In this document: piece after piece, positions 8,370-60,718 of the stretch | Layout: the number at the start of each line of letters is the position of its first letter | Position numbering within the stretch: the stretch's first letter is position 1 | Assembly: GCA_037043015.1 (NCBI GenBank) | Contig: CM073324.1 | Location: forward strand, 2,163,413 to 2,227,412 | DNA length: 64,000 nucleotides | Direction of reading: 5' to 3' | DNA from: Bryum argenteum | Lineage: Eukaryota; Streptophyta; Bryopsida; Bryales; Bryaceae | Notes under the pieces: model-generated | Told to the model about the DNA's origin: nothing | The model's input: the letters and a program-made list of their open reading frames with translations, nothing else | Databases searched by the model: none | Translations under genes and position numbers: made by a program

Positions 8370-8445
8370 TTAACGATAGTTGGGGGTTAATGTAATAAAA
8401 TCAAGAAATAGGCTATAATGAATCTTATCATTTTTCCTTGTTCCA

Positions 8446-9950
8446 CTTTTAGTTATCCCACTTTTCGTCATCCCACTATTCTTTATCCCACTTTTCTTAT
8501 ACGAAGTATCATTTTCCTTCATCTCATTTTTCTTTATCCCATTTTTCTTTATCCCACTATTCTTCATCCCACTATTCATCTTCCTACTATTCATCATCCC
8601 ACTATTCTTCATCCCACTATTCTTCATCCCACTATTCATCACCCCACTATTCATCTTCCTACTATTCATCATCCCACTATTCTTCATCCCACTATTCTTC
8701 ATCCCACTATTCTTCATCCCACTATTCATCATCCCACTATTCATCACCCCACTAATCATCATCCCACTATTCTTCATCCCACTATTCATCATCCCACTAT
8801 TCATCATCCCACTATTCTTCATCCCACTATTCTTCATCCCACTATTCATCATCCCACTATTAATCACCCCACTAATCATCATCCCACTATTAATCACCCC
8901 ACTAATCATCATCCCACTATTCTTCATCCCACTATTCATCATCCCACTATTCTTCATCCCACTATTCATCATCCCACTATTCATCACCCCACTAATCATC
9001 ATTCCACTATTCTTCATCCCACTATTCATCATCCCACTATTCTTCATCCCACTATTCATCATCCCACTATTCATCACCCCACTAATCATCATCCCACTAT
9101 TCTTCATCCCACTATTCATCATCCCACTATTCATCATCCCACTATTCTTCATCCCACTATTCTTCATCCCACTATTCATCATCCCACTATTCATCACCCC
9201 ACTAATCATCATCCCACTATTCTTCATCCCACTATTCATCATCCCACTATTCATCATCCCACTATTCTTCATCCCACTATTCTTCATCCCACTATTCATC
9301 ACCCCACTAATCATCATCCCACTATTCTTCATCCCACTATTCATCATCCCACTATTCATCATCCCACTATTCTTCATCCCACTATTCTTCATCCCACTAT
9401 TCATCACCCCACTAATCATCATCCCACTATTCTTCATCCCACTATTCTTCATCCCACTATTCTTCATCCCACTATTCATCATCCCACTATTCTTCATCCC
9501 ACTATTCTTCATCCCACTATTCTTCATCCCACTATTCTTCATCCCACTATTCATCATCCCACTATTCATCATCCCACTATTCTTCATCCCACTATTCTTC
9601 ATCCCACTATTCTTCATCCCACTATTCTTCATCCCACTATTCATCATCCCACTATTCTTCATCCCACTATTCATCATCCCACTATTCATCATCCCACTAT
9701 TCATCATCCCACTATTCTTCATCCCACTATTCTTCATCCCACTATTCTTCATCCCACTATTCATCATCCCACTATTCGTCACCCCACTAATCATCATCCC
9801 ACTATTCATCATCCCACTATTCTTCATCCCACTATTCATCATCCCACTATTCTTCATCCCACTTCTCTTTATGGCACTTTCCTTTATCCCACTTTCCTCC
9901 ATCGCTCTTTCCTTTATATCATTTTTCTTTATCCACTTTTCTTTATTCCT
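8446..9950. repeat. 15-bp satellite array with higher-order structure
   Basis: About 1.5 kb built from the unit ATCCCACTATTCTTC and its variants (TTC or ATC at the end; a CACCCCACTAATCATC variant recurs at intervals that are multiples of 15 bp: 30, 90, 105, 120). Units degenerate at both edges (8446-8540 and 9860-9950). Because the unit length is five codons and lacks stop words, both strands carry continuous frames of over 500 codons: [10 protein letters not shown] repeats on plus and [10 protein letters not shown] on minus. There is no signal peptide, flanking domain or promoter support, so I treat it as satellite DNA, not a gene. Confidence 0.95.
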
Positions 9951-10467
9951 TTTTTTTTTTTTTTTTAAAAAAAATTTATCCCTCGTTCCTTTATTCCATT
10001 TTTCCTTTATCTCACTTTTTAAATTTTCCCTATTTTCTTCTTTTTACTTTTTCCCCCATGGTTGTAAAACATAGCCACGTATGTATGAAATGGTGATGGC
10101 ACCATAAGGCTTTTAGTTGGCCCCAACTCGTCATTGGCAAAGTGTACTGCCATCCTTGCTCCATCATGCGCATTCAATCATTGTCAATGCCATCCTTTGC
10201 CCCTCCTTCTCATACAAACCTTTCCTCAACCCCTCACTTTTTATGTGTTTTGTGGGTGCAATGCCGAAAAAATTGCATGGGAGAGTCATGTCTCAAATCT
10301 AGTGAGCGGGTAGATATTGGAACGAGTATTGACCAAGGGATATCTCAAATCTAGTACATTGGTAGATTCAAAAAGTGGTAGAGCACTATATTGTATCAAG
10401 TTCTTTTTAGTTACAAGAATGATATAATTATCAAACTTGCGTATTTTTTTTTAAGGAAGATCTCTTA
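9951..10467. other. T-rich flank and intergenic sequence
   Basis: A T-run followed by an A-run (9949-9975) flanks the satellite. Beyond it are short open frames with no recognisable content. Confidence 0.5.
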
Positions 10468-13565: not shown

Positions 13566-14449
13566 AAGTAATATTTTTGCTTAAGAATTTTATCGGGTCC
13601 TCCTATTACTGCAAAGTGTATGTGGTAAAGTTTGCAAAGTCAAATTCCAATTTTTGAGTCTCTTAGGATGATCCTTGGGTTGCGAGCCGAGATGGGACAG
13701 CTCAAAAAAGTCACTTTTTTTATTTTTTTTATTTTTTGAAACATGATCATTACTAAATCACTACTCAAATTTCAGAGTGACTTAAGTCAAAAAATTTACC
13801 AATTTTACAAGGGCAGCCTGAACTTAAGGTGCACAAGAACTTAACCCTTTATAATTACAATAATAAACATGATTATTATTTGGGCAAGTTTTAAATAAAG
13901 GGACGTTTGGAGGTACCCTTAATTTGACTTGCATTTTAGGACTTGCTGAACGAATGTAACCATCGTTGTAAGTGGCAATTCTTGTAACTTTTTTAAGGAC
14001 AACTAGTGTTTCTTATCTTACACCTTAAACAGAAGGTTCAAACTTCTTACTTAATGCACAATTTGGCTTTAAAATTAATATTAATAAGGTTTGTCTTAAG
14101 TTAATATTGATTTATTAGAAGATATTCTTATAAAAAACTTTCGATAATCTAAACACAATATATGATTAGCGATTTTTAATTGAATCATATGGCAAGGCCT
14201 TGGAGTTCCAAATATTCTCAACAAAAACTTCAACATTATATTGCATCTCTTCATAAACTCTATGAGAAAAAATCTCTATAGTTCTGAATGCATCTTAACA
14301 AGGATTTAGAGAAACAATTTTCTTCTTCCTAAACCTTTTTAAATAGTGATGAAGAGATGGTGTTTACCAAATGAGAATATTCCTATAGAAACTCCGGATT
14401 CCGCTAAGAGGTTGAGCTGTAGATTTATTCCATAAAATTCTTTACTTCT
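13566..14449. other. Intergenic sequence
   Basis: No gene seen. One more isolated CTTAACCCTTTA end-like word lies at about 13850, without an obvious partner. Confidence 0.45.
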
Positions 14450-17400
14450 TGCTTGATAAATTTTAAACAATGTTTGTCTTAAAAAAATTAATATCTTAAA
14501 TAATATACTCTTAAAGTGTGTTATGATATGTTGATTTTGATTATGAAATATTTAATCATAAAAATAAAGTAATTGATTCTTTAAAGTATTTTGAATAGTT
14601 GAAAGTTATTAAGTTTTATGAATTTCATTCTTTAATCTTTCTTTAAACTTGCATTATCTTTATAACCATGTTCATCTTAGATAGCATAAAATCTTATCAC
14701 TATCATTTATAAGCAACTATAATTTTTAAAGTGATTAAAATAATTATCTAGTTTCCAAATCTACTATAATAAAAAAATGTTGCATTCATACATTGTATAT
14801 ATCAACAAAGCTTCTTTTATCTTACAATTTAAAAAATTAAAACCGTTACTTGCTTTTCATATTTACACTAGATATGTCCTTGTATATTAATAGAATGTGT
14901 GAAGGTGTGTATAAATATCTAATGACATTTATATAAGTGTAAAAGGAAAATACTTATTATAGCCATTAATTTGGTTCTAGGTACCATTTCTCTTGTTCTA
15001 AGAAACTTAATTTGTCAACAATTTTCACACGTTGAAACTTACAAAATTAACAATAGATTTAAAAGATTTAATAGATATAACATATTTAATTTTTTATTGC
15101 ATGGATTTTAATTTATACATAACACATTTGAAATTTCTCTGTAAGAATATTATTTCACTAATTATCAACTTGAAATTAATGAGAGAAACCATATAAAAGT
15201 ATATCCTAATAATTTCAAATTGTGTTTGAAATTGTGTTTGAATTTGTAATGTTTATCATCAAGACCATTCATAAGTTAACATTGTACTAGCCAATATCAA
15301 AAAATCTAATATAAATTGAAAATTAGACATTCCATATCTATATATATGCTTAATTTCTAAAATGTACTTAAACTTCACAAAATTTTAAAATTTCGTGTCT
15401 TGCCCTCTGTATCTTGAATATTATAGTGAACCTTGTAGCACATATGTAAAGCAAATCTTATTGAAATTTGAAACTTCTATAATAAGACATTTAGTTCTTG
15501 GTTCTTTAACATAGAAGTAGTACAATATGCATTTGCAAACAACTTATATGTTTAATACTTTAATTTCCTCCTTCACTATAACAATATGAACAATAAATTA
15601 TAAAAATATATTGCTAAATAAAAAATTTGTATATTTTTTAAAAAATTGTCTAAAATTATATAATTTTCTTCCAAAATGCATAATTACATAGTAAGCTAAT
15701 AATAGTTACAAAATACTTTATGCCTCAATTTCAATAATTATTTACTTTCTTATGCAATCACAATAAATTGTTATACTTGACACATAATTATTTATTATTA
15801 TTTATATAAAAATTCAAAAGACAAATAAATTATCAGACAATCACTACAAAATATTATCAAATCCAATGTATTAGAATAAGTAGATTATTTACATTACACA
15901 AAGTATGTTAACTTTGGACTATTAAAATTATTTCCAGCAATCTAGCTTTATCTTTTAAAAAAATTCTAATATTTTTAAAATACTTATAATCATGAGTGTT
16001 ATTATCATTTATCCACAAAATTTAATATACAAAAATACAGTTTAATATATACATTAGGCGTGATAATTTTTTTTAGAATTAAGGATTAATTGAAATAAAT
16101 CTCAAATATTTTATTTTGTAAACGAATGTGAATGATTGTAATATGAAATGTAGCAAAGACTTTTATCCTAGATGAATGTTTCTGAAATAAAGACTTAATA
16201 GGAAAACTTGAGACGGAAGCTTTTATTTACTCAAGTTTATATTTCTCATGGGTGTATGTATGGTTAATAGTTAAGTGGGCGAAGCATTATAGTCAAATTG
16301 ACATCATGCATGTAAAAGTCTTAAGTCAAGCCGACAATTGTTTTACTCGACCAATGCATGGGTTTTAAGGATAGAGGACTTGTCGAAATCTACTTCAACC
16401 CTTGCTTATTTGTTAACTACCTTGCTTTCGATTTTCTCTCCATCATTATGATTCTAGTCATTAACTCACTCTTAAGGTAATGTTTTTTTATTTATTAAAT
16501 ATGGATCAAATAATTGGGATAAAGTAGTGTTAAGATGATCAAGCCTTATAATATTGATTCTTAAGAATGATTATGTATCCTCTTAAAAATATAACTAATA
16601 TATGTGTTTATTTCATTACTCGAAGTTAGCTAGTCTACTCTTTCCTTACGGTTGGCCAGGCTTATCTTTTCTCTTTGATAGACAGATCACAATAAACACG
16701 CTCTTAGCATTCTTCTAAGTTAAGATAAGATTCTTATCTAATATCAAGTTAATAGTGAAAAATATTTTGTACAGTTAATGCGGCTATTATTTTTTCCAGT
16801 TATAGCGATCTTGTGGATATCGACATGTGGACATCACTTTTATCATCCATTGCCTCTTGCTTCAGTAACTATTTTCTTGGCATCCACATTCCACAAGGCC
16901 TTCATGTTAGTCCTTCATTAATAACATTACACACACTTGAACAATGCGAAATAATAAAAAATGTAAAATGTTAACTGTATTAATAAATTGAAAATTTTTA
17001 GTTAGAATACACGGAGAGAATGGAGTAGACAATAATAACTTGTTTTTCAACAACTTCTCTCTCTCTAAAGACAAAAAGGTTCTTAGCCAAATCTTTACAA
17101 ATCTACCTTTCTATTTCTTAAGCTCTTTTGTCTCATTATTTCATCTTATCTGTATACTTAATCTACTAAACTTTTTACAATCTATTTTACTTAAGGTATT
17201 CCTTTACTACATAAAAATAAAAGAAATCCAAAATATATCAGTGAATAAATATGCATTTGTGCTATAAATTAAAAAAGAAAATAAATTGTAATATGGTGTC
17301 TAAAAGGTCAATTAACTTTTACAAGATCAATTGATTAAGAAAATTACAAAATTTTTAGGATATACAATTAGGCATTTTCGAATATTATCAAATAAAGTAG

Positions 17401-20357
17401 AATAAAATATAGAAATAAAATATTACAAAAATTATAGTAAAATATTGATTATAATACAAACACTTATTTAATATATTTATATTAATGAAATCTGAAAGTA
17501 ATATGAACTATTTAAATTTTTTTATGATTTTGATTAAATTCTAATCATACCTTATACAAAATATAGTAAGGTTTTATTGAACACACCTTAATGCAATATC
17601 GATAAATAGTATTCAATAAATTTTTTAATATATCAAGAATGATGAAAATACAACCCATTAGCTCCAACAAAAAAATAAAATTAATATTTTATTTCATAAA
17701 AATCAAATTTCATAAGTGTTGTATTTGAGAATCGTAACAAAATAAGCCCTCTTATATAGCAATTGAATGTATTGTCACACTCTATTGCCTCATTGATCAT
17801 TTTCAATTCACTCTTAACCTACTATAAAACCCCCATTTTTGTCTTCATGAAGAATTGTTTTACATATTAAATAAATATTAAAGGATCATGTAATTATTAA
17901 AAATTGCTAAAAAATTAAACAAAACAAATATTGTGCATATTATGGTTGTAATATTAATGATTTTTTCTTAATTTTTTCTTTTGTATTTTTGAAAGAAAAA
18001 TATTGAATAAGTATGTTGTTTTGAACTTTTGATGTACTAGGTTGCTGACTTTTCTCAGACAAATTTAATGTAAGTGGTAGAAATGACTCCATAGAACTTA
18101 GTTTGTGATTCACCTTTGCGGTTTTTGCATTATTTTTGAGGTCCACAAAGACTTCTTTTATTGGTTCTTGAGCATTTCTTCCAATCCATATCATTTGTGT
18201 TGCAATTGAATGCATACTCAATTCGGCAAAACTTCCATTTTGTGGAGCAAATTTTTTAAAATTTAATTTTGATTGTTAGCTTTTTACAATGGACAAGTTC
18301 ATAAACACATAAAAATTTATTGCATTGCTATATTATGCAAAATAGTTAAATTGTCTTATCTACTCGGGTTCAACAACTTTGAAATTAAAACAACCATTGT
18401 ATAAAACATCTCATTAGATAATTACATAAATAAATGCGATCGATTGTCGAGAGTTACATCTAGATCCAAGGGATATTAACTTAATTAAGAAGTGGGTCAT
18501 CAACCTTTATTTACAAATACTTGAATTTATGAGAATATTAAGTTTTTTTGTTATGGTATAAATTAAGAGTGAATTGAGATATATTAGTATTAAAATTTTC
18601 AAAATTCTTTTATGAGATGAAATATAGAATTATAAGAAGAAACAAAATATAATTTTCACTTGTTTGGCTCATGAAATTTCATAATTTTTGAAATTTATGG
18701 TACATTATTTTCATATATAAATATTTTACTCTTTCTTTTGAGAAAATAAAACTTTTACAACAACTCTTTTCTAGCGATAGTTTTACAATGATAATTTTAT
18801 AGAATTTTTTTTTTTATAAATATATGTACAATGTTGTTTTGTTGTAATCAATAATGTTATGACATAAAAATCACTTCATTAAGAAAGAAAAATAATGGTA
18901 CCATTGAAATTAGTTATATCTATAAAATAAATTAGTATTGAAATGATACCGAGATGGATATTGATAAAAAATTGTTTTTTAGAATGAAACACTAAATGCC
19001 ACACACTTTCAACAATCATGCAGACACAATTTTGCAATTAAATCTATCAAAAGACTTTAATATTGGTAAAAGATTGTTTTTAAAGTAACTTAAACTCTTT
19101 ATGTGTATTCAGTAAGCTAAATGTGTGCACTATTATAGTATGGTTCTTTGTTTTCAAAGCATTTGAGTATCTTCCTCTATCATTTTCTTCTCAAGAATAG
19201 CAAGAAATGCCTTACAATGTTATAGCTCAAGGTACTAGCAATAAAGAACTACTAAATTTATTGAGCAAAACCCAAGAATTTTGTTGTTTGATGACCTCAA
19301 ACCTTAACAAACATAGAAACTATATAAATTATTACTACATTTATCGGCCTACTTTGAGGGGTAATAAAATATTATTACTTGCTTCTACCAAAAGATATTG
19401 GATAATTGGCAAGAATGTATCACTATGATACAACTGTGCTATTCCAAGCAAGTAGGAAAAAAAATATGAATTTATGAAAATGACCTTCTAATAGAACGGA
19501 CAAAACAATTATGTAGAGGAACATGTATTAGAGAGGTTAGTTGGAATTGATTAGGGATTAGAAGTAGACCGTGTATCCAATAATACTATACATAGTTTCC
19601 ACATTCTGTAATCACACATTATTGAATAATATATATAATTATTTTTAATTTTTTAATTTTTTCTTTAAAAAAATAATCAAGTGTTATCTTCAACGAACTG
19701 AAGTTTCTACGAAACACTTCCAAGTTTTCTTACAAGACCTACTTGAAGCTACAAAATTACATAACCATTTCAGAATAGAAGAGTATCAAATAAAGATTGT
19801 ATACTTTCTCTTATTACTAAATAAATCACATGATTGAAAAAATTATAATTTAAATGGCTTTCATGCTTCTAAACTTTTTGCTTTGTCTATAAAGGTTGGT
19901 AATAATTGAGAAACTAGACATTCTTCATTTCATTACAATTTTGCAATGCTTTCTTGAATATTTCATAAAAAAGCACAATGTCTTCAATAAAATAGATTGC
20001 AAGTATAGTCTTTTGTGCTACTATATATGTTATATATGATATTTGTACTTATATTAAATCATATAAGCTGTATACCATTGCAATATATAAAATATGATTC
20101 CTTAACTATAGATTGTAGTTACAATGTTAAAAACAATTAGTCAAGAACGACTTAGAATATGACTACTTGTAAATATCTCAACACAAAATGTGATTATTTG
20201 TAGTTATGTAAAAGAAATAATCATAAAGTTTAATGAGATGACTTGCAATAGTTTATTCGTTGTCATTTTAGACTATTGATTGGGGATTATATGACTGTAT
20301 CCATAGCCAAGACCACCATCTTGTAGTTTATATATGATGTATCATATACAATACATC

Positions 20358-20398
<41 letters not shown>

Positions 20399-20450
20399 TG
20401 ATGTTATAAACCATAAATTGTGCACTTTTCACTATATACCATGTTGTATA
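14450..20450. other. Very AT-rich block without genes
   Basis: About 6 kb that is visibly richer in A and T than the rest of the window, with almost no CG dinucleotides. Open frames (75 codons at 17040 plus; 93 codons at 17940 minus; 73 codons at 19207 plus) are hydrophobic or Lys/Asn-rich and carry no recognisable domain. The composition would fit an old, methylation-decayed transposon tract. I found no long terminal repeats, transposase or reverse transcriptase motifs. A dinucleotide AT tract sits at about 20360-20397. Confidence 0.6.
20360..20397. repeat. (AT)n microsatellite
   Basis: Uninterrupted alternating AT of about 36 bases at the right edge of the AT-rich block. Confidence 0.95.
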
Positions 20451-20957
20451 TTGTACAGTGCACATCATCTTCATAATCAACAAATACTACACCCAAAATA
20501 GGCAACCAAAGTAACTTAACCATGTAAGTTATTGTAATATCAAGGAAACATCTTCTTGCTATTTATTGTTTCACACATTTCAATGGAGATATAAGTGAAA
20601 AGTTGTACATAGATATCAGCATTAGGATCCAAGACAAGTTTCTTTGTTACTTTTCATGTCAATCGGCTCCAAGTCTTACTATTTTTGAGATGTGTAGAAG
20701 ATTAAAAGCCTTCAAGAATGCAAAATTCAAATTAAGAATGTAACATAACTACATTTGTATGGCAAGTTCAAAAATATTTAGATTGAACTTTGAAATGTCA
20801 AACATTTTGAAATTTTCTATTTCTGGTAAAAACAATACCATCTTCAAAATGGATACATCAAAGGATAGACCGAACGAATATTATGTTGACATTGCCCTCA
20901 AAAATACTCAAAATTGACATTGGGTTCTTCTTCTATTTACAAGGTATCAAATAGTCA

Positions 20958-21204
20958 TTAACCCTTTATTGACACAGGGACCAAATTGGTCCTCGAATCT
21001 GAACAAGAACTTCCATACTCTCAATGGTGGCAAATTTTGAGATTTTACCTGATGTGGTCGTTTTTTTAAAAAAATATTTACAAAATCAAGTTAGCTCAAC
21101 ACTCACCATTTCGGATTTTTGAATTTATTTGATTATCTATGCTAGAATATGGTCAAAGGACAGGTCACATTTTTCTCAAAACAGTGATGTCAATTAAGGG
21201 TTAA
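20958..21204. repeat. TTAACCC-ended element e (247 bp)
   Basis: TTAACCCTTTATTGACA at the left is inverted as TGTCAATTAAGGGTTAA at the right (one mismatch in 17). The interior differs from copies a-d. It lies about 0.5 kb upstream of the CSU2/Tls1 start codon. Confidence 0.8.
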
Positions 21205-44646: not shown

Positions 44647-47398
44647 AGTGCCGAATATGGAGCTGTCAGCTGCCGTCCTCAATTGAAAAAAATTCCGTAG
44701 ATTCCGAAAATCCAAAGGTCTGGCAGCGGATCTTTTGATTTTGATTCAGGAAAAATGGAGAAATGTTAAGTTTCACAGAAATCCGAGCAAGAGATCATAT
44801 ACATGGGCAAGAAATTGTTTTGATTCTTGGAGAAGTTTCTGTGGATTGGATACTATTATTGCAATTAAGAAGCTTCCTATTCAAGAGTTTGGATCAATGT
44901 TGTGTAAGTTTTTAATTATGTTGAACAAGGAGAGTGGTGATTGGTGAACACTATCCCACGAGAACAATTATGAGTATGCTCCAAGCTTTCAATCAAATTT
45001 TGTGGCATATATGCTCAAGATGAAAGGATTGTTACAATCAAAATTTAAGAGGTGTCGTTTAAGACAAAAATCATCCTTGGTTCAAAGCCCACTACTAGGG
45101 TTGTACAAGATGTTGTAGAACGGAGTAAGGATGGTGGCACCAATAACCTTGAAAACATGTTAATTATATTCCATTTGATGAAGAATGCAAATTAAAGTAC
45201 TTTCTCATGCTAATCATTTGGCAAGTCATCCGCTAGGAGTTCAGAAGAGATTTGCATATTATTGTGTCAATTATTGTGTTTCTTGTACAATGAGGATCTG
45301 AATTGCAAGGACTTCCGGGCAATGGTAAGCTTGGGGTATCACTTTTTGGACACACTAATTAGGTTATTTTTATTGAAAGCCTCCAAAGTTTGTCTAATTT
45401 AGTCATTTTAATCAAGTAAAAAGACCCTAAAATAGAAAATAAAATATCATGCACCTCACTGAAATCAAAGTATATATGCCTATAGATTTTCTTTTAGATT
45501 TTTTATTTTTTTGGATCCATTCATAGATGAGGGAAAAAGTGTTGAATTTGGGGATTTGCAGGCATTTTAGTGCACAATGAATTAATTCTTTTATTATTAA
45601 ATAAATTATTTTGTATTCTATACAAGAAGATGTAGGTCATATTCAAAAATCATATTAAAATAAAAATGGTTGATATTCCATTTGCTTGATTCTATGGATT
45701 TTAGGTTATTGGGACATGACTTACTTTTTCAACTAAAAAATCAAATAAAATTACTTCAAAATATTTTTTTTAATTTTTAATTTTTTTTCTTGATACATTA
45801 TAAGTATAGACAACTAAAACCACATCTAATGAAGTCTTATTGTATTACAGTTTAAAAATGGATATGCTTGTCACACCAGCATAGAGTGCAATTGTTCATA
45901 GGACAACCTTTTTGGGTACCCCAACCAGACTATCACCCTTCCGGTGTCTGACTTTCAACTCAAAAAAGCCTTTGAAGCCTTTGACCTTTGAATATCACTA
46001 CCAAAAAGAGTTCGAGGCATGGTATGCGCAACAATTCTTCAAGTCAACTCCCTGTACACATGTTTCTAGAGTTTTTTTGGAGTTACTAAGGTAAGCAGAT
46101 TTTGCTTCATAGAAAGTGGTTCAAGGGATGTAGCTTACAGTCTTTTGAGTTGGCTCGTATTTTGCAGGTTGACTGTTGAGAATATGCCAATAATCGAAAG
46201 TCTTGGCAGTAGAATTGCGTTTTCAATGTGCAAATCGGCGAAAAAATAGTTAAATTTGTGTGAAGAAGTGTGAGACAATGTGATGCACAAAGCAATATTG
46301 CAATAGAGATGTAAATATTATGTATCAATGTATGTTGAAGTCTTTGTGCTAGATGAAGCATGAATGGTTGGACGAAAACTGTGAATCTCGATGTGAAATC
46401 GAGGGATTTCTTCTAGTGCTTTGGATGACGTCCATCCTCATTCATCCATATACATGGGAGTGGCAAGTATCCCATATGGTTATGTAGCAGTATAATAACC
46501 GAAGTGGAAAATCAATTCCAAACATTAAGGATTCAAACACTGGGGATCCGTCATCCGTAGTGTAGAAGCTTTGTTGTAAATTGTCACTAGAATAAATTTC
46601 TTTCTCTCTCACACATAATCATTTTATCACATTCCTATAAATTTCTCATAATACAATGAACATCAATTTGCACAATTTATACTTTATTTATCTCCAGGTG
46701 GGATTGTAAAATTAAACATTCAATTGTTGAATCTTAACACAATAAAATAGGTTGCTTTTAGTATCCCTAGGTACTGCCACTCTTCATGGTCTGACAAAGA
46801 AAAATAAAACACCAAAAAAAGTCTATACTCTTCCAAAAACGGCTAAAGTGAAAAGACTCATAAATACCAAAGGACACAATACTTCAAACAAGAACGGACG
46901 GACAATTGAAAAAATTAAAAACGGACGGACGGATCACGAACTTAAGTACGGATTTGAACTTTGAAACGGAACGGGCACGAACGGACAAGGACTTTTGAGA
47001 CGGATAAATGAAATTGAAAACTTAGAGTATCAAACTATCTAACAGGAAATATGACATTATTTACTATCCATTTTAAAACCCGGAACCTCCGTTTTGAACT
47101 ATTAAAACTCCGTTATTAACAAATTGAAAAATTCCTGGTCTACAGGTTAGCAGGGTAAAGGTTACCCGTAGCCCCAGTGGAGTAATCTTGGAGGCTGTAC
47201 TGGAGAGATTCGGAAAGCACCAAGGAGTAACTGGCATGCGATGGTTGCATGTGGTGGAAACACATAGCACCAGGGAAGGTGTTGTTGTGAATTATAACGC
47301 TGATCGTCTTCTCAAGTGAAAGCTGCCACGAGAAGAAATATTGACTGGACTGCGGTAATGGAATATGGTATGAAACAGGCGATCTGTACAGATTGAAG
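44647..47398. other. Intergenic sequence left of the KamA gene
   Basis: AT-rich with scattered short frames. ACGGACGG repeats occur near 46910-46990. Composition shifts sharply to GC-rich at about 47,450, inside the last codons of the KamA frame. No other gene recognised. Confidence 0.5.
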
Positions 47399-49012
47399 TT
47401 ACGATTGAGCGCCAACAAGCGGAGCCGCTGTGCGGTTGTGAGAGCGGCCACCGTTTGTGTTCAGCAAGCGGTCGGCCCACCAGCGACGCCCGGATTCCGG
47501 CAGCGTGTGGATGGGGTCGTAGTAGGCGTACCGGCGGTCCAGCGCAGTCTCGTCAGACCGCTCGATCCGGGTCCTGTAGTTCTTCGTCCAGTAACTGATC
47601 CCCCGCTCGCGGTCGTACTCGGCCACCTGATGCACCCATCGTTTGCCCACGTAGGGCACATCGCAGACAACTCGAGGCGTTGCGAACCCGGGCAGGTAGC
47701 CCATCAGGTCGTGCTGCAGGGCCTGCGCGGTGGCCAGCGACACCCGCCAGTGCTCGGCCGACGGGATCATGTCGCACATGTAGAAGTAGTAGGGCGTGAC
47801 GCCAGCACCGTCCAAGAGCGCGAAGCATAAGTCAAGCAGCTGCCCGGCGCTGTCGTTGACCCCGTGAAGCAGCACGCCCTGGTTGCGGACGTCGCGGACC
47901 CCGGCATTGAGCATCGCGCGCGCAGCCTCGGCCACCAGCGGGGTCACCGACTGGGCGGCGTTCACGTGCGTGTGCACGGCGAGCGAGACCCCTCGTTCCC
48001 GGGCAGTTGTCGCCAGACGCGTCATCCCCTCGACGACGTCTTCCTGCAGCCAGTGCTGCGGCAGCCCCATCAGCGCCTTGGACGCCAGACGAATATCCCG
48101 GATGGACTCGATCTCCAGCAGCCCCGAGACGAACGCCTCAAGGCTCCTGAACGGCATATTGGCGACGTCGCCGCCAGAGACGACGACGTCGCGGACGCTC
48201 GGGGTGGCCCGCAGGTGGGTCAACATCGCAGTCTGCCTGTCGACGGGCAGCATATCGAACTTAAGCTTGGTGACGGCCGGGGTGGAGTTCCCCACCAGGT
48301 CCATCCGGGTGCAGAGCCCGCAGTATTGCGGGCAGGTGGGCAGGAGTTCGGCGAGGACTTTGGTGGGGTAGCGGTGGGTCAGGCCCTCTACAGCCCACAT
48401 CTCCTGCTCGTGCAGAGAGTCTCGCGCGGCGTACGGGTGGCTAGCCGCGGCGAGCCGGTCAGAGGCAACGGGGAGCATGTAGCGACGGACTGGGTCGGAC
48501 AGCATGGCGCGCGTGCTGGGCAGCGTGGTGGGTACCATGGTGTTCAGCATCTGCGGCGGTAGTAGCAGTGACATCGTCGCCTGCCCAGCCTGGTCGGCGG
48601 CGATGTCGGCGTAGAAGGACTCATCGAGCAGGTCGCCGTACACCCGGCGCAGCTGACGCAGGTCCTTTACGCTGTGGAGTCGCTGCCACTTCGCGCTGCG
48701 CCACTGCGCTTCAGTCACGTCGGCGAACCCGGGCAGCCTCCGCCAGTCAGGCTCGACGAGCTCCCGCGCTGTGTACTCGTACGGCTGCTCCAGCGCGGCG
48801 TCCTCCCGCCGCGAGCGCACCTTGGTTATGCACCGCTCCACGTCCGAACCGATGGATATGCTGCTCCAGGCCGCCCGGCGAATGGATTTCGACGCCCCGA
48901 TCGGGCTCGACGAGGTTCGCATCGACGTTGAGCAGCTCAACCTCGACGCCGGGTCGTCCCGGCAGGCGCGCTGTGGTGAAGGCGATGCGATCCAGGACGC
49001 GATGCTGGCCAT
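47399..49012 (-). CDS. kamA: KamA-family radical SAM protein (lysine 2,3-aminomutase-like), bacterial-type, intronless
   Basis: An uninterrupted 537-residue frame. The radical SAM cluster motif CPQYCGLC places Cys227, Cys231 and Cys234 to bind the 4Fe-4S cluster. VVSGGDVANMP (277-287) is the SAM-contacting GGD/GGE-type motif. VHTHVN and YYFYMCDMIPSAEHWRV follow. Lys457 in VPYVGKRW is the likely PLP lysine, but the clostridial lysine aminomutase PGGGGK motif is absent, so the substrate is uncertain. Text such as EQPYEYTARELVEPDW, MSLLLPPQMLNTMVP and GISYWTKNYRT is what I know from actinobacterial KamA proteins. GC content and GC at third codon positions are far above both flanks. The first in-frame ATG is 49012. 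Residues 1-57 precede the bacterial homology and look like a Ser/Ala/Arg-rich transit peptide. I infer horizontal transfer from an actinobacterium. No intron and no neighbouring bacterial gene is intact. Confidence 0.9.
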   Translation of the reverse strand: MASIASWIASPSPQRACRDDPASRLSCSTSMRTSSSPIGASKSIRRAAWSSISIGSDVERCITKVRSRREDAALEQPYEYTARELVEPDWRRLPGFADVTEAQWRSAKWQRLHSVKDLRQLRRVYGDLLDESFYADIAADQAGQATMSLLLPPQMLNTMVPTTLPSTRAMLSDPVRRYMLPVASDRLAAASHPYAARDSLHEQEMWAVEGLTHRYPTKVLAELLPTCPQYCGLCTRMDLVGNSTPAVTKLKFDMLPVDRQTAMLTHLRATPSVRDVVVSGGDVANMPFRSLEAFVSGLLEIESIRDIRLASKALMGLPQHWLQEDVVEGMTRLATTARERGVSLAVHTHVNAAQSVTPLVAEAARAMLNAGVRDVRNQGVLLHGVNDSAGQLLDLCFALLDGAGVTPYYFYMCDMIPSAEHWRVSLATAQALQHDLMGYLPGFATPRVVCDVPYVGKRWVHQVAEYDRERGISYWTKNYRTRIERSDETALDRRYAYYDPIHTLPESGRRWWADRLLNTNGGRSHNRTAAPLVGAQS

Positions 49013-49043
49013 TTTGGCCGAGCTGGTCAAGATTCACCACCCT
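48828..49043 (+). pseudogene. Truncated bacterial open frame antisense to the KamA 5' extension
   Basis: The plus strand reads MDMLLQAARRMDFDAPIGLD, then EVRIDVEQLNLDAG and DAIQDAMLAILAELVKIHH, before reaching plant-like sequence and a stop at 49050-49052. Codons are rich in G at position 1 and G/C at position 3, and the residue mix is normal for a globular actinobacterial protein, unlike the Ser/Arg-rich product of the opposite strand. I infer the 5' part of a divergent neighbour carried in with kamA and cut off at the integration junction near 49040. The family is not recognised. Confidence 0.5.
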
Positions 49044-49430
49044 GAATACTGAGTTCGACAGCTGAATTCAATGTCGGCGATTAAACGGATGCTCAGAATC
49101 CAATCAGTCTGCCGTCGAGGAAATCCTATCAATTTACTCAAAGTTTGAAGTGACTTCAGTCTTGAGCACCTGATGTCCTTGACCACAACCAATTCAGCTT
49201 CGAAGGTCCACAATTATGGACAGTTTCTAGCAAGAAAACTCAGCGGTTCAAGCTGCAGAATCCTGAATTCTGAGTTCTACAGCTGAATCCAAATTCCATT
49301 GTGTAACAATGGCTCAGAATCCAATCAAGTCTACACTCAAAGTTCTAAGTTCTTGACGACCTATCTTCACTACAGCCAGTTCAGCTGCAAAGAGCTCCAC
49401 GGGTTTGGACAGTTTCTAGCGAGGAAGGCA
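49041..49430 (+). repeat. Imperfect tandem duplication at the right edge of the bacterial insert
   Basis: CCTGAATACTGAGTTCGACA (49041) recurs as CCTGAATTCTGAGTTCTACA (49262). Each is followed in the same order by GCTCAGAATCCAATCA, a TCTTGA block, CAGTTCAGCT-type words and GGACAGTTTCTAGC. Copy lengths are about 221 and 170 bases. The bacterial-like sequence stops exactly where the first copy starts. Confidence 0.8.
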
Positions 49431-55058: not shown

Positions 55059-58000
55059 CTACGTAAAGATGGTGATGACATCTCGTCTATAACCTCGCAC
55101 CATGAGTAGTCTTGGGACGTTCGCCACTAGTAAATCGATGTACTCCATGTAGCAGAAAGCAGGGTGGCGAGGGGGTGGTGGGGGCAGGCTTACTAGAACT
55201 ACCGCCGCCGTTCTCGAGTATTTTAATATGATAGAATTGAGTTTTAATGTCGTATACAAAAATTTGTTCACCTGCCAATTTCCAACATATATCAGCAACA
55301 TGAATAACAACAGCACTGAACCCTTAAAGGAAATCGACGTCTAGGTTAACCGAGAATCCTCTCTTGGACGGCTTACACCAAAAAAAAAAAAAGGACACCC
55401 AGATACGAGCAGAAGCAATAGGGGTTTGCTGTGAATTCAATATCGAGTGAGTAATATTTTGACGAATGTCCTCACCTGGTGATCGTTGAAAGAAGTGTAA
55501 TCAGTCTCGAACTTGGTGGGACCATCAACACCTTGCTTCATTTCCTCGACACGAACGGAGATTCGCTTGCGAGCTTTGGAAAATGCATCCATGGCACCAT
55601 CACGTTGTACTATATTGGTGTCTTCATGGTTATCCTCCCACGACTTCATGGTGACGACAATCACTTCCGCTTGCATTCGCAAATCATATAAAAATTTCTT
55701 CACGTCTGCTTTAAGTTCCTCAGCCTCGGTTTCCTCCTCGGCAATGCAAAACACCTGTGATGGCAAAGGATAGCTAGTTAGCCGCGAGACCTCGATTGCT
55801 TACGTAACGCATCATAAGTGACATCCAAGAGTGCAGGGAAGCGTACCTGGATTTTGCAGCTATCGAAACATTCTTTCGCCCGAAGCAACTGAGATAAGAG
55901 TAGCATAAGGCCACCATCACGGACAATCCAGTACAAGTCAATTGTACCATACTGCCTGTCGTACTCGCCGGGCCACTCATCCAGACCCTTCACCAAGACA
56001 ACAGCTTTGTTTGCAGTGGAGCAGTCGTTGATGATGGAGTAGAAATTGTTTGGCACTGCGCTGTGGGATCTGTCCCTCCATATCTCAGGATACCGCATGC
56101 ACACAATGTTAGGTTTCAAATTGGCGAGTCCCATAGTCTGAATCACACCCCGGAACCCATCCAGGAGTGTTCTGGCCACAATCACCTCCGCCACTCCTTC
56201 ACATTTCTTCTCCTGAATGTACGTACCCAGCAGCTTGCCAGCCTGAAAACCGTAACTGTGTTAAGGCGATGCATCATTCAAGCGTTATATGATGAGCCTG
56301 CAGTGAAGTAATTGTATACTTCACAGCTAAATTCGACCTCAAAGATAAGCTACTCACTGAATCCGTCATATGAAGTTGGTTTCATGTGACATACTTTTTA
56401 AGATGTATCGAATTAGACTTGTTGAAATTAGAAATATTCCTAGTTAGAATCTAGGTCGTTGTGGTACCTGACGAGCATCTTCATTTCTAAGCTTGTAATC
56501 GCCTTCTAAGATGGAGATGAATAAGGACATTCCACGGCCCTTCTTTTTCATGCAATTTGCAAACTCCGCCAGCTTTGGATGACAAGGAGCATCATTCGGC
56601 AGGATACCCCACGGTCTGCAGAAGATAAGAGGAATGGGGTACCAGTTTTTGGGATGTACTTGAGTGGCTGCAGAAAAAAAAGATCGTCTCAGTCCTGGGC
56701 ACCACTACGAAATGTCTACACATTCTGCAGCATGTATACTTAAATGCAACAAGAGTCATTTTAACAGAAGCACGTCGTTTAGTTTAAGCGCACCTCCAAG
56801 AGAGCGTAGACTTCGCAAGGCAAGTTGGAAGTAGGCACTTTTGAATCCATCCCCCCAATCACCACCTTTGCCTTTGATGCTAACATACCAGTATAGCAAG
56901 CTCGCCAATGCCAGTGAGACCACGGTAAATAACCATGAAATTACGAACATGATGACTGCATCCACACACATTTGAACAGCCTTGTCATGACTTCCGAAAA
57001 CACAAAGCAACAACAGTAGAAATTTCTTATCATAAATTTGGCATTGATGATAGGTTCTAAAGGCAAAACTACATTCGAAGTTGCTCAACTAAATCTGTAG
57101 GCCATTATACTGCTATACTTTTGCTGACGATGACCACAATAGGATGGAGAAGAAGCAGAAGACCCGATACTCACCGATGCAAAGCACAGCACCCAAAAGA
57201 GAAAAGCTCCAGTGGTGGTATTTCCAGCGAGGGCGCCAGCTGGGTGCGTCTAGAAGCTCAAGTAAAAGGCAAGACAAGTTGACACCTCCATAGCACATGA
57301 GGAAGAACATAGTTATGACTGGAGTGATAAGGTCAAGGTTGCCAATAACCACACAGCTCGAGCAGATGAACATGGTAGCCAGCGTTGCTAAGTGGGGCTC
57401 AACACCGTCAGGGGCCTTAAAGTACTTCAGAACAGGGAGAATGTCGTCATTGGCAATGGCAGCCAAAAGTCTAGGTGCCCCTGTTAAACTCTGCAGAGCA
57501 GCACCAAGCGTGGACAAGATCACTCCTACTTGCACCACCCATGCTACTGGCCATGCGACTGTCGCTGTTAACAATCTGTTCACAAGTTACAACTTGTACG
57601 TCATTCTTGGACAACATAGACTTGCACTTCGTGCCTACTGTACAATACCTGAAACTAAGGCATTGTACACGAATTGCTCAAACAAGTTGAAAGCTCTAAA
57701 AAATCTTCTGCTTCAGGATATCGTACACTAGATAAGGAAAAAGAATGCGGAAGATCTTCTTGAAAGTGAATGCACGATATTTAAGAAAAATGCATCTCAT
57801 ACATATATATTCAAAAAATCGCAGTGATAAGCTATACCTGTCCGTTAGCAGCTGCTCTCTAGTGGCCACTGCCCCAAACATGAACACGGACACTATGTAC
57901 AAAGCAGTGGTGGTGCCAATAGCTGATAATGTACCCACGGGAATAGACTTTTGTGTGTCCTTCAAAGATGCTGAACGATTTGAACCTGCCATGATACCGG

Positions 58001-60718
58001 TGACGGCTGGAAAGAAAAGCCCCAATAATGAACTGCATACATTTTCAAACCACAAAAATCTGCTCAGTGGCATGAAACAAGTACACTCACGTACTAATGA
58101 ACAACAACAGTGGACTTGGAAAGAACATACTCAGTCGGACTAACAAATATACAAATTCATTGAAACGAGGGGGAACAACCAAGAACAGCCCCAGAAGTTT
58201 CACAGCTCCTACACATTCATTCCCCTACAGTAAGTATTGTCCTGGTATCCGATAAAATCTGCCTGGAGAATTCTGGCTTATGAAAAGAAGCGCTTGCGTT
58301 GAACTACTCACTAGAAACTCCAGTATATGTCTCCATCAGGGGTTGGTATGCCAGCATGATTAGTTCGTTGATAAGCAGAACCCCAATTCGAAGTCAATGT
58401 GTGCCACCTTAGTCCCGTAACTCCCGCTGCATTTTCACCAAACTAATAGGTCATTCACCCACTTTCAAGCATGCTTCGTGAAAGTCTGAAGCCATCACTA
58501 TGAGCGTAACATTCTGAATCAAACCAGTGCTGCCATAAAATCTCCACTGTAATAAGCTCATGAGAGAGAAAGTCAGGAGAAGGAAACTTACGGGGATCTT
58601 TGCTGCGAGGAGCTGCTAAGATACCGATAAAGATAAGGAGCACCGATAACAGCACCGGGAATAGAAAGGCAGGGGCCACCTTGTTGATAATTTTAACACC
58701 TCCGAAGACAATAAGACACAGCAATACCGTCAGGATTACTGAGTACACCTGGAGATCGTGTATGTTTGTGGTCCTCAGTACATCAGGTGCTGCTGAAGCT
58801 GATGGAACTCCAGGGACCAAGTCCGTGATGGTTACGGTTTCTGTCAAAGCAACAAACTCGATCTCAATGAAGTAGTCTTTATAAAATCGGAGAACGAACG
58901 CATTTGAATTGGTGACACGGTCATGACTCAGATTTGAGCTTCAAGCTTATGCCAGTTCTCCTATGTGGTCTCTTTATTGCCCAACCACACTGCAAGAACT
59001 AGGACCAGACCCACATCAACGTACGCTTGAATATGCCTGCCGCGGGAATGGCGTCAAGAAACGTTTCCACAGCTCCAAGCACATACCTGTAGTAACCAGG
59101 TAAACAAATATTCAAGAGTCAAAAATTTGAATCTTCAACGTGCAGTGATATTATAAGTTACTACATACTCCTTCATACACATTAAAGTTAACCTACGATT
59201 GCCTCGAATAGGAATTGCTGAGCATGCGTCAGTAGAAAATACTAAAAGTCAATCTAACAACTTGATGACCTGAATCTGTCGGTGCCGGCGAACCTTATTA
59301 TGGTTGTTGTACCAATTAGTGATACAGGGTTGTGAACAACATGAGTTTGGAGATAATATAGCATGAACAGATGAAGCAAGGAATCAGCGACTTACAAGGA
59401 CCCTGCCACAGCGTTCCCAAGAAAAAAGCAGAGTCCAATGCTGACCCCAACTTCAGGACCCAGCGCTCTGCCTATGAGATAATAAGGACCTCCACCCTGC
59501 AGCAGCCAGACGTACAACGCATATCAAATTAGAATCAAGACGACGCTGGCCCAACCTAAAACATTATGAGTGAAAGAAGCGCCACTCCACCCGCCATTCC
59601 AACATATGGAGATAAATTTCTCACCTTCATGGCTCCATTGGTAGCAATGGCACTGAGAGATAAGCCAGTTAAAAATGTACAAGCGCAGCAGATAAGTACC
59701 AGCACCAAGCTGTGCCAGATGCCTGCTATACCAACAATCCTGCAAGAAAACGAGCAGAAATCAGGGTAAAGCTTTCGGCCCAAGGTAATCAACAGCATGC
59801 AAGGTCGACTTCTGAATGCAGGACCACATCATCAAGTATGCCTCAACAAGCACTGCTTGACAGTGGACATTTTACTAGATTTGACTTGCTGTAAGATGAA
59901 TTTAGTTGGAAATCAAATAAAAGTGTAACAATTTACCAACTTCGGGTCTTAAGACAAACGAACTCACCATGAAAACCGAATATAAAATATAATACCAAGA
60001 ATATTTTGAAGGCACGGAATGAAGACGCCCATCAGAGTCCCCAGGTTTGCACTCTTCGCCTGCAAGCGAGCTCAATTCTTAGAGACCATCAAAGCAATAA
60101 TAGAATGGTTGATTTCAAATCAATCTCCAATGAGTTAATGCCAAATACAAGACTCTAAAATGGAAAATGTTCAGGAGTCTACCTGGAAAAAAGGTTGCTG
60201 AGCAGGATCTTGGCGTGGTTGATCAACCGAAACTGCAACCTCTCCTATAGGACTTTGAGGTACCTGCTGCTGACCTCCCATACTGCAATAACTCACGAAT
60301 CGATCCCTTACTTTCGAAAAAATTAGGTTTAACATTGATGAAACTCACGAGAAAATTAACCGAACCTTTTGAGGCCGCGGACATTAACGAGCGGGTCAAC
60401 TTCGAAGAGCTCCAGCTTAGACTCGCGCTCATTTCGCTCAAAGATAGCTTTACTTGGAGACGACGGTCTTGGAGGATCACTTCCATTTTCTTGCTCCCTA
60501 TTAACAAGAATTTTCAGGATCTTTGCCACAAGAACAAAATCATTTCATTGCAATAAAAGCTGCAAAAAAATAATTACACAAGAGAGAAAGAGCTCTGACT
60601 TGACGGATGGGGGCGGGGGGGAGCTGCTCCGAGGCGGGAGCGGCGACGACAGATCCACCGTCGCCATTTCAATCCCCTCCTGTTCACCTGTAGCGTCTCG
60701 TTCGTCCTCGTCCGCCAT
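55059..60718 (-). CDS. CCC1: Cation-chloride cotransporter (SLC12 family, plant CCC1)
   Basis: A 976-residue membrane cotransporter moving Cl with K and/or Na, almost the same length as Arabidopsis CCC1. Sixteen exons (minus): 60718-60600, 60497-60366, 60282-60183, 60059-59968, 59739-59625, 59496-59396, 59086-59025, 58840-58592, 58426-58312, 58032-57838, 57575-57175, 56955-56794, 56667-56468, 56242-55847, 55754-55476, 55271-55059; all keep frame. Residues 1-117 are a hydrophilic acidic/Pro/Ser-rich cytosolic N-terminus. The amino-acid permease core begins [20 protein letters not shown] and includes [54 protein letters not shown] and [15 protein letters not shown] soluble SLC12 C-terminal domain follows ([28 protein letters not shown]-like [48 protein letters not shown]), ending [12 protein letters not shown]. 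No defect seen. Confidence 0.95.

Follow-up and report, generated by a model that had tools for sequence, protein, structure and literature searches.

A kamA-type gene of actinobacterial origin in the chromosome of the moss Bryum argenteum, most likely kept by purifying selection beside a decayed remnant of its bacterial neighbour

Bacterial genes are known to have been transferred into mosses, and evidence from orthologs or expression is usually required to show that such a gene is in use. Among the described cases, the nicotianamine synthase genes of mosses were acquired repeatedly and independently from fungi and bacteria, lie between plant flanks, and hold an intron in some copies (PMC12454661). 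The kamA-type gene of B. argenteum described here resembles them as a gene of microbial origin that lies between moss genes and is apparently kept in use. It differs from them in the enzyme encoded, in the donor—which is fungal in two of the three lineages of moss nicotianamine synthase genes—and in the kind of evidence, which includes expression and metabolite for nicotianamine synthase (PMC12454661) and is drawn from sequence for moss kamA. In the literature searched, no report of a moss or plant lysine 2,3-aminomutase was found. The moss gene adds to the known microbe-to-moss transfers, among which its enzyme and the rewiring of its start site are unusual.

On the bacterial side, the closest systems are the kamA loci of Geodermatophilaceae (Klenkia, Blastococcus, and Modestobacter), where kamA and kdd, which encodes L-erythro-3,5-diaminohexanoate dehydrogenase, are arranged divergently. 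In the bacterial set used here (the best 80 of at least 581 confirmed candidates from the genome collection), kdd is the divergent upstream neighbour of kamA in 76 loci; the other four (L007, L029, L049, and L075) hold no kdd match, and in two of them kamA is found at the edge of the locus. The moss protein has the same core as KamA from Geodermatophilaceae (81–87% amino acid identity in 12 loci compared), and the moss insert shares with these loci the spacing of the cysteine motif and the divergent order of both genes. In contrast to them, the moss copy has lost the GTG start and nearly all the intergenic segment, its kdd is a decayed stub, both ends of the KamA protein are new, and residue 233 has changed from His to Leu. 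The GC content at third codon positions (GC3) of moss kamA is 0.86, compared to 0.948–0.998 in the 21 closest bacterial loci. No loss of CpG that would be a footprint of methylation was observed, with an observed/expected ratio of 1.08 in moss kamA and 1.03–1.25 in 27 bacteria.

The window, i.e., the whole 64-kb stretch of DNA that was analysed, comprises bases 2163413–2227412 of a 28.7-Mb contig (C4) from an assembly of 258.8 Mb in 25 contigs, and contains no N bases. The KamA-type radical SAM frame occupies positions 47399..49012 on the minus strand, from an ATG at 49012 to a TAA at 47399. As the first-pass annotation had described, it is intronless and has 537 codons: a single uninterrupted ORF of 537 amino acids counted from the ATG (AAAATGGCC). 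The ORF over this frame extends to 47399..49030 on the same strand and yields 543 amino acids when counted from a TTG. The sharp-edged, GC-rich island reported in the same annotation is also borne out, since each 100-nt block between 47400 and 48999 has a GC content of 61–73%, while the twelve flanking blocks on both sides have 31–51%. Among all 1640-nt windows, the island is the GC maximum, with 0.664, followed by 0.509 for the next best elsewhere and a mean of 0.382. The extent initially assigned to it, 47399..49012, is right for the frame, but the bacterial-like DNA passes 49012 and ends somewhere between 49020 and 49046.

The insert is bordered in the assembly by plant DNA on both sides, free of gaps, and has a single match there (C4:2210811-2212472). 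On the left, part of a repeat with copies scattered over the moss genome (47180..47367, plus strand) ends 32–39 bp from the kamA stop codon. The left flank has 23 weaker matches elsewhere in the moss genome, 16 of which fall inside this fragment, and 15 of these 16 stop at positions 47360–47367. The right flank, with one match in the moss genome, bears an imperfect direct duplication (49021..49428, plus strand, spacing 189–221), the first copy of which overlaps the junction. The neighbouring gene is a spliced moss gene for cation-chloride cotransporter 1 (CCC1; 55440..59830, minus strand), whose exons, stitched by hand and identified by database match, have their best matches in Physcomitrium patens and Ceratodon purpureus (81% each), which identifies the host as a moss at a similar distance from the two. 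The CCC1 exons and the moss repeat on the left agree with the plant flanks proposed in the first-pass annotation, and, together with the single match, they support within the assembly the integration in a plant chromosome. Copies of the moss repeat were also located at L086 and L089–L092, and the one at L090 adjoins a frame of ~325 codons that may be a mobile-element gene.

The actinobacterial origin behind the horizontal transfer proposed at first reading is supported by protein search and phylogeny. The part homologous to Geodermatophilaceae kamA DNA covers residues ~74–514 (47468..48817, minus strand, limits of the best match), and its best DNA match among the 80 loci is that of Klenkia marina (L001), with 83.8% by blastn over 1356 nt. 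The best 120 of 8000 scored proteins show 71–87% amino acid identity to moss KamA, and those named by organism are actinobacterial, mostly from Geodermatophilaceae. In a tree of 131 proteins, moss KamA falls in a set of seven with an SH-aLRT of 96, together with K. marina, K. terrae (P0059), and four further proteins. No named moss protein appears among the best 120 (at least 71% identity) of the 8000, from a database that includes P. patens and C. purpureus proteins; either the transfer is lineage-specific, or the copies elsewhere were lost or are unannotated.

The bacterial DNA is not limited to kamA. The first-pass annotation correctly recognized kamA as an embedded gene, but overlooked a hitch-hiking stub of kdd, the disappearance of the GTG start and of the segment between the two genes, and a second, intron-bearing KamA gene elsewhere in the genome. 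This truncated and decayed stub, of ~77 codons, is located at 48813..49043 on the plus strand, with its right end at 49020–49046. It matches NF052381 with an E-value of 2e-9 and 37.4 bits, a fragment score below the 200-bit cut-off, compared to 262 bits for the full kdd of K. marina. Relative to 12 bacterial loci, the stub has indels of +3 and −9, and its amino acid identity to these bacteria is 46–61%, whereas they share ~80% on average among themselves. The homology to kdd breaks off mid-gene, where the plant DNA with the imperfect ~200-bp duplication starts. In the 23 nt at 49021–49043, the window coincides with the second plant copy at 16 positions, and Klenkia kdd coincides over the same stretch with the first copy at 16 and with the second at 17. 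Due to this likeness among window, kdd, and second plant copy, the join between bacterial and plant DNA can lie anywhere in ~49020–49046, and it was perhaps made at a chance similarity between kdd and plant DNA. The flank duplication of ~200 bp, with the end of the kdd stub, the second plant copy, and bacterial kdd all alike, may tell how the joining took place.

The start of kamA has also been remodelled. In the 12 bacterial loci aligned, chosen from the 80, the start codon is GTG in every case, while the moss copy holds GCG at 48794–48796. Of the segment between the bacterial genes, the presumed promoter, 16 nt are left, and the lost start and this remnant together take up positions 48794..48812. 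Through the intergenic loss, the replacement of GTG by GCG, and the indels of the stub, the kamA frame has become continuous with the antisense strand of kdd up to the ATG at 49012. This codon, in the context ccaaaATGGcc, would be the translation start of moss KamA. The resulting N-terminal extension (MASIASWIASPSPQRACRDD..., 48813..49012 in the alignment, minus strand) comprises ~67 residues from kdd antisense, followed by a few from the remnant of the bacterial leader. It is rich in Ser, Ala, and Arg, and resembles an organelle transit peptide, and it might perhaps direct the import of moss KamA into an organelle. However, the antisense frame of bacterial kdd is equally rich in Ser, Ala, and Arg, so this likeness is inherited and is no proof of targeting.

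Whether the open state of this extension reflects selection was judged from the bacterial sequences. Projected on the window columns, the antisense frame is open in seven of the 12 bacteria and already holds a stop in the other five, and simulated drift starting from those seven leaves it open in 23–57% of the runs. The open extension was consequently rejected as proof of selection, and its openness is weak evidence. At the opposite end of the protein, the last ~22 codons (47399..47470, minus strand) form a tail that, in comparison with bacterial kamA tails, is replaced or unrecognisable. This tail has no clear match in five bacterial loci; four of them align no better than shuffled sequences, and the fifth (L005) is marginal, with a score reached by 28 of 300 shuffles.

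Regarding the enzyme itself, a sequence search of solved structures yielded a single relative, the lysine 2,3-aminomutase of Clostridium subterminale (2a5h, E=3e-38), which is also the best fold match in the PDB (E=2e-22). The identity is 26–27%, and the two structures superpose only moderately (TM 0.53, normalized by the length of the query). The three cysteines of the cluster motif CxxxCxxC are kept in the moss protein as C227, C231, and C234. The CPQYCGLC stretch of the first-pass annotation is indeed present, as C227-P-Q-Y-C231-G-L-C234, but the annotation missed that the Leu inside it replaces an invariant His. Radical SAM proteins follow the rule CxxxCx-Phi-C, with an aromatic residue or His before the third Cys; Leu233, at this very position in moss KamA, departs from it, and the best 120 relatives listed hold His without exception. 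Considering 222 near-invariant columns, moss KamA deviates at four, and each of the 39 relatives examined (of 120) at none or one.

Compared to 2a5h, the cluster loop has Leu instead of His, and a Cys that presumably binds zinc in the clostridial enzyme is aligned with a Ser. R134, D293, D330, and K337 of 2a5h are presumably the PLP-binding Lys and the lysine-contacting Arg and Asp residues, with D293 and D330 binding lysine. In an alignment read by eye, the moss residues opposite R134, D293, and D330 are likewise R, D, and D. Lys457, which is invariant, is likely the PLP lysine of the moss enzyme, but lies just past the end of the 2a5h alignment and is closer to the Asp by one residue. The substitution His233Leu could weaken or change the activity. 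The AlphaFold model, built from 43 sequences with a mean pLDDT of 73.6, leaves its effect unsettled, as the pLDDT falls below 50 in residues 221–255, which include the cluster loop, as well as in residues 1–53, 198–217, and 522–537.

L-lysine is the predicted substrate of moss KamA, in a SAM/PLP-dependent 2,3-amino shift, and the moss would use the β-lysine formed as, for instance, a compatible solute or a precursor. An appreciable minority chance is left for another substrate or another reaction of the KamA fold. Moss KamA reaches 149.8 bits against TIGR03820, the lysine-2,3-aminomutase equivalog, below the cut-off of 525.4, and both His233Leu and the Ser at the presumed zinc ligand would fit a different reaction. 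Nevertheless, the bacterial relatives P0006, annotated at NCBI as KamA family, and P0059 score alike (150.5 and 126.1 bits, likewise below the cut-off), the columns of the presumed lysine-binding D293 and D330 are kept, and kdd, with which the gene forms a pair in bacteria, belongs to the β-lysine route. The picture is similar for the NCBIfam KamA family profile TIGR00238, where moss KamA obtains 156.2 bits and the same two relatives 158.5 and 137.9, all below the curated cut-off of 199.2.

The decayed kdd inside the same insert provides a built-in yardstick, by which constraint on kamA becomes visible from one genome. Changes were counted at sites where two bacterial references agree and the moss copy differs; for kamA, the counts cover the 445 of 492 codon columns that are free of gaps in 28 sequences. 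At codon positions 1, 2, and 3, changes from G/C to A/T affect 23/300, 2/188, and 38/331 sites in kamA (references L001 and L003), and 8/53, 8/29, and 8/48 sites in the kdd stub (48834–49043, references L001 and L014). The pattern is alike in all six distinct reference pairs for kamA and in all seven for the stub. Both genes differ at position 2 (Fisher P=1.5e-6, with second references that differ between the genes) and do not differ at position 3 (P=0.34). Over the seven pairs and over stub ends set at 48813 or 48834 and at 49020 or 49043, the P-value for position 2 ranges from 3.5e-9 to 4.4e-5, and omitting the ambiguous stretch 49021–49043 leaves the result on selection as before. Moreover, 39 of the 63 A/T-ward changes in kamA are synonymous, compared to 34.7% expected under random placement with an assumed transition weight of 66:34 (P=1e-5).

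For A/T-ward changes, the kdd stub is without constraint, while kamA keeps it in the same DNA. Thus, kamA has most likely been kept by purifying selection since the transfer, where the split of its branch between donor and moss is a matter that we infer. The fact that the neighbouring scrap decayed and kamA stayed intact suggests, at the level of sequence, that the moss uses the captured enzyme, and the retention of the gene makes it most likely that the KamA protein is made.

A gene that was once used, and now drifts with its frame open by luck, is an improbable explanation. It would account for the His233Leu substitution in the cluster motif, for the deviations at four of the 222 near-invariant columns, and for the length of the moss branch (0.226, compared to 0.075 for K. 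marina). However, kamA contains no stops, when 8.1 would be expected at the rate of the stub, and its position-2 changes are limited to 2/188 over the same drift that the stub records, which implies that selection acted during most of that time. A recent loss of function after long selection may still have occurred.

The stub also informs about the age of the insertion. When all changes are considered, position 3 of the stub differs at 20/48 sites, compared to 9/62 and 12/62 at positions 1 and 2, and this excess indicates that part of the branch corresponds to a phase of constrained kdd, i.e., to the donor. Part of the A/T drift of kamA could similarly precede the transfer, its GC3 being within the bacterial range. 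At positions 1 and 2 of the stub, 21 of 124 sites differ uniquely (JC 0.19). Mosses accumulate ~5–9e-9 substitutions per site and year, which suggests an insertion roughly 20–40 million years old, with a wide error and with some of the changes possibly belonging to the donor. The integration is thus possibly old, in the order of tens of millions of years. Of the two options offered at first reading, recent or under selection, the codon structure of kamA compared to that of the stub supports the second and speaks against a very recent insertion.

Alternatively, selection and A/T drift could have taken place mostly in an unsampled donor of lower GC content, already devoid of kdd, from which the gene passed to the moss very recently. 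Such donors are conceivable, since GC3 values of 0.85 and 0.87 are found in two Geodermatophilaceae genomes from metagenomes, and the total changes of the stub retain some codon-position structure. Neither of these genomes, however, groups with the window gene, and a bacterial kamA deprived of its start codon and of the DNA upstream would presumably fall silent, yet the constraint persisted. This course of events is considered quite improbable.

The same genome contains a second gene of the KamA fold. This gene, of actinobacterial type, is located at C5:2868452-2870392 (positions 4953-6893 of L093), and shows 78% to Actinomadura craniellae and 87 and 84% to P0121 and P0122, two proteins from short contigs with which it groups with an SH-aLRT of 100, and which could come from other plants or from an unsampled bacterium. 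Its coding sequence consists of two exons split by a 534-bp GT-AG intron with in-frame stops, and removal of these 534 bp restores the reading of the bacterial protein. Like the window kamA, it encodes an actinobacterial-type radical SAM protein of the KamA fold with an N-terminal extension, in this case short and rich in Ser and Ala. Unlike the window kamA, it belongs to another subfamily and contains an intron. The gene looks domesticated, which makes a repeated capture of such enzymes by the moss lineage credible.

Assembly contamination or a chimera, i.e., a bacterial fragment misjoined into a moss scaffold, fits the 87% amino acid identity to living soil actinobacteria, the lack of introns, and the GC content of still 66%, the joins having been examined in the assembly, but it was judged very unlikely from the moss repeat 32–39 bp from the stop on one side and the single-match moss flank on the other, with no N, from the single copy, from the decayed stub with its A/T-ward changes devoid of codon structure, from the disappearance of the GTG start and of nearly all the DNA between kdd and kamA, and from the intron-split actinobacterial KamA elsewhere in the same genome.

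The reading preferred here, which is held to be very probable, is that a kdd-kamA piece was integrated in the moss chromosome, where kdd decayed and kamA was rewired and kept by purifying selection. According to this model, ~1.6 kb of actinobacterial DNA, similar to that of Klenkia and other Geodermatophilaceae and bearing divergent kdd and kamA, would have entered the chromosome at a time that plausibly lies tens of millions of years back. Truncation of kdd would have been followed by its decay, the DNA between the two genes, which presumably held the promoter, would have been almost wholly lost along with the GTG start, and kamA would have been rewired to the upstream ATG, with a frame that crosses the kdd stub in antisense. 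Purifying selection would then have maintained kamA, with the moss producing the KamA protein. The product is predicted to be a [4Fe-4S]/SAM/PLP lysine 2,3-aminomutase converting L-lysine to β-lysine, which the new N-terminus perhaps takes into an organelle.

That the moss holds a β-lysine enzyme with an organelle leader derived from kdd antisense, which together with the C5 KamA would constitute a plant β-amino-acid metabolism, is a tentative proposal and a rather doubtful one. No description of a plant metabolism of this kind was found in the literature searched. If a land plant has a radical SAM aminomutase of the KamA type, plant lysine metabolism would gain a β-amino-acid branch, which might bear on stress tolerance. 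In turn, the rewiring of the start site represents a simple path from a gene with a GTG start and a bacterial promoter to a plant gene.

Two other features of the window lie apart from the insert. At positions 8370-9968, a 15-bp unit (ATCCCACTATTCTTC) is repeated in tandem ~95 times, an array that yields frames of more than 500 codons on both strands, one of which is a run of peptide repeats. Positions 14001-21000 form a 7-kb stretch with a GC content of 21–29%, clearly below that of the remaining window.
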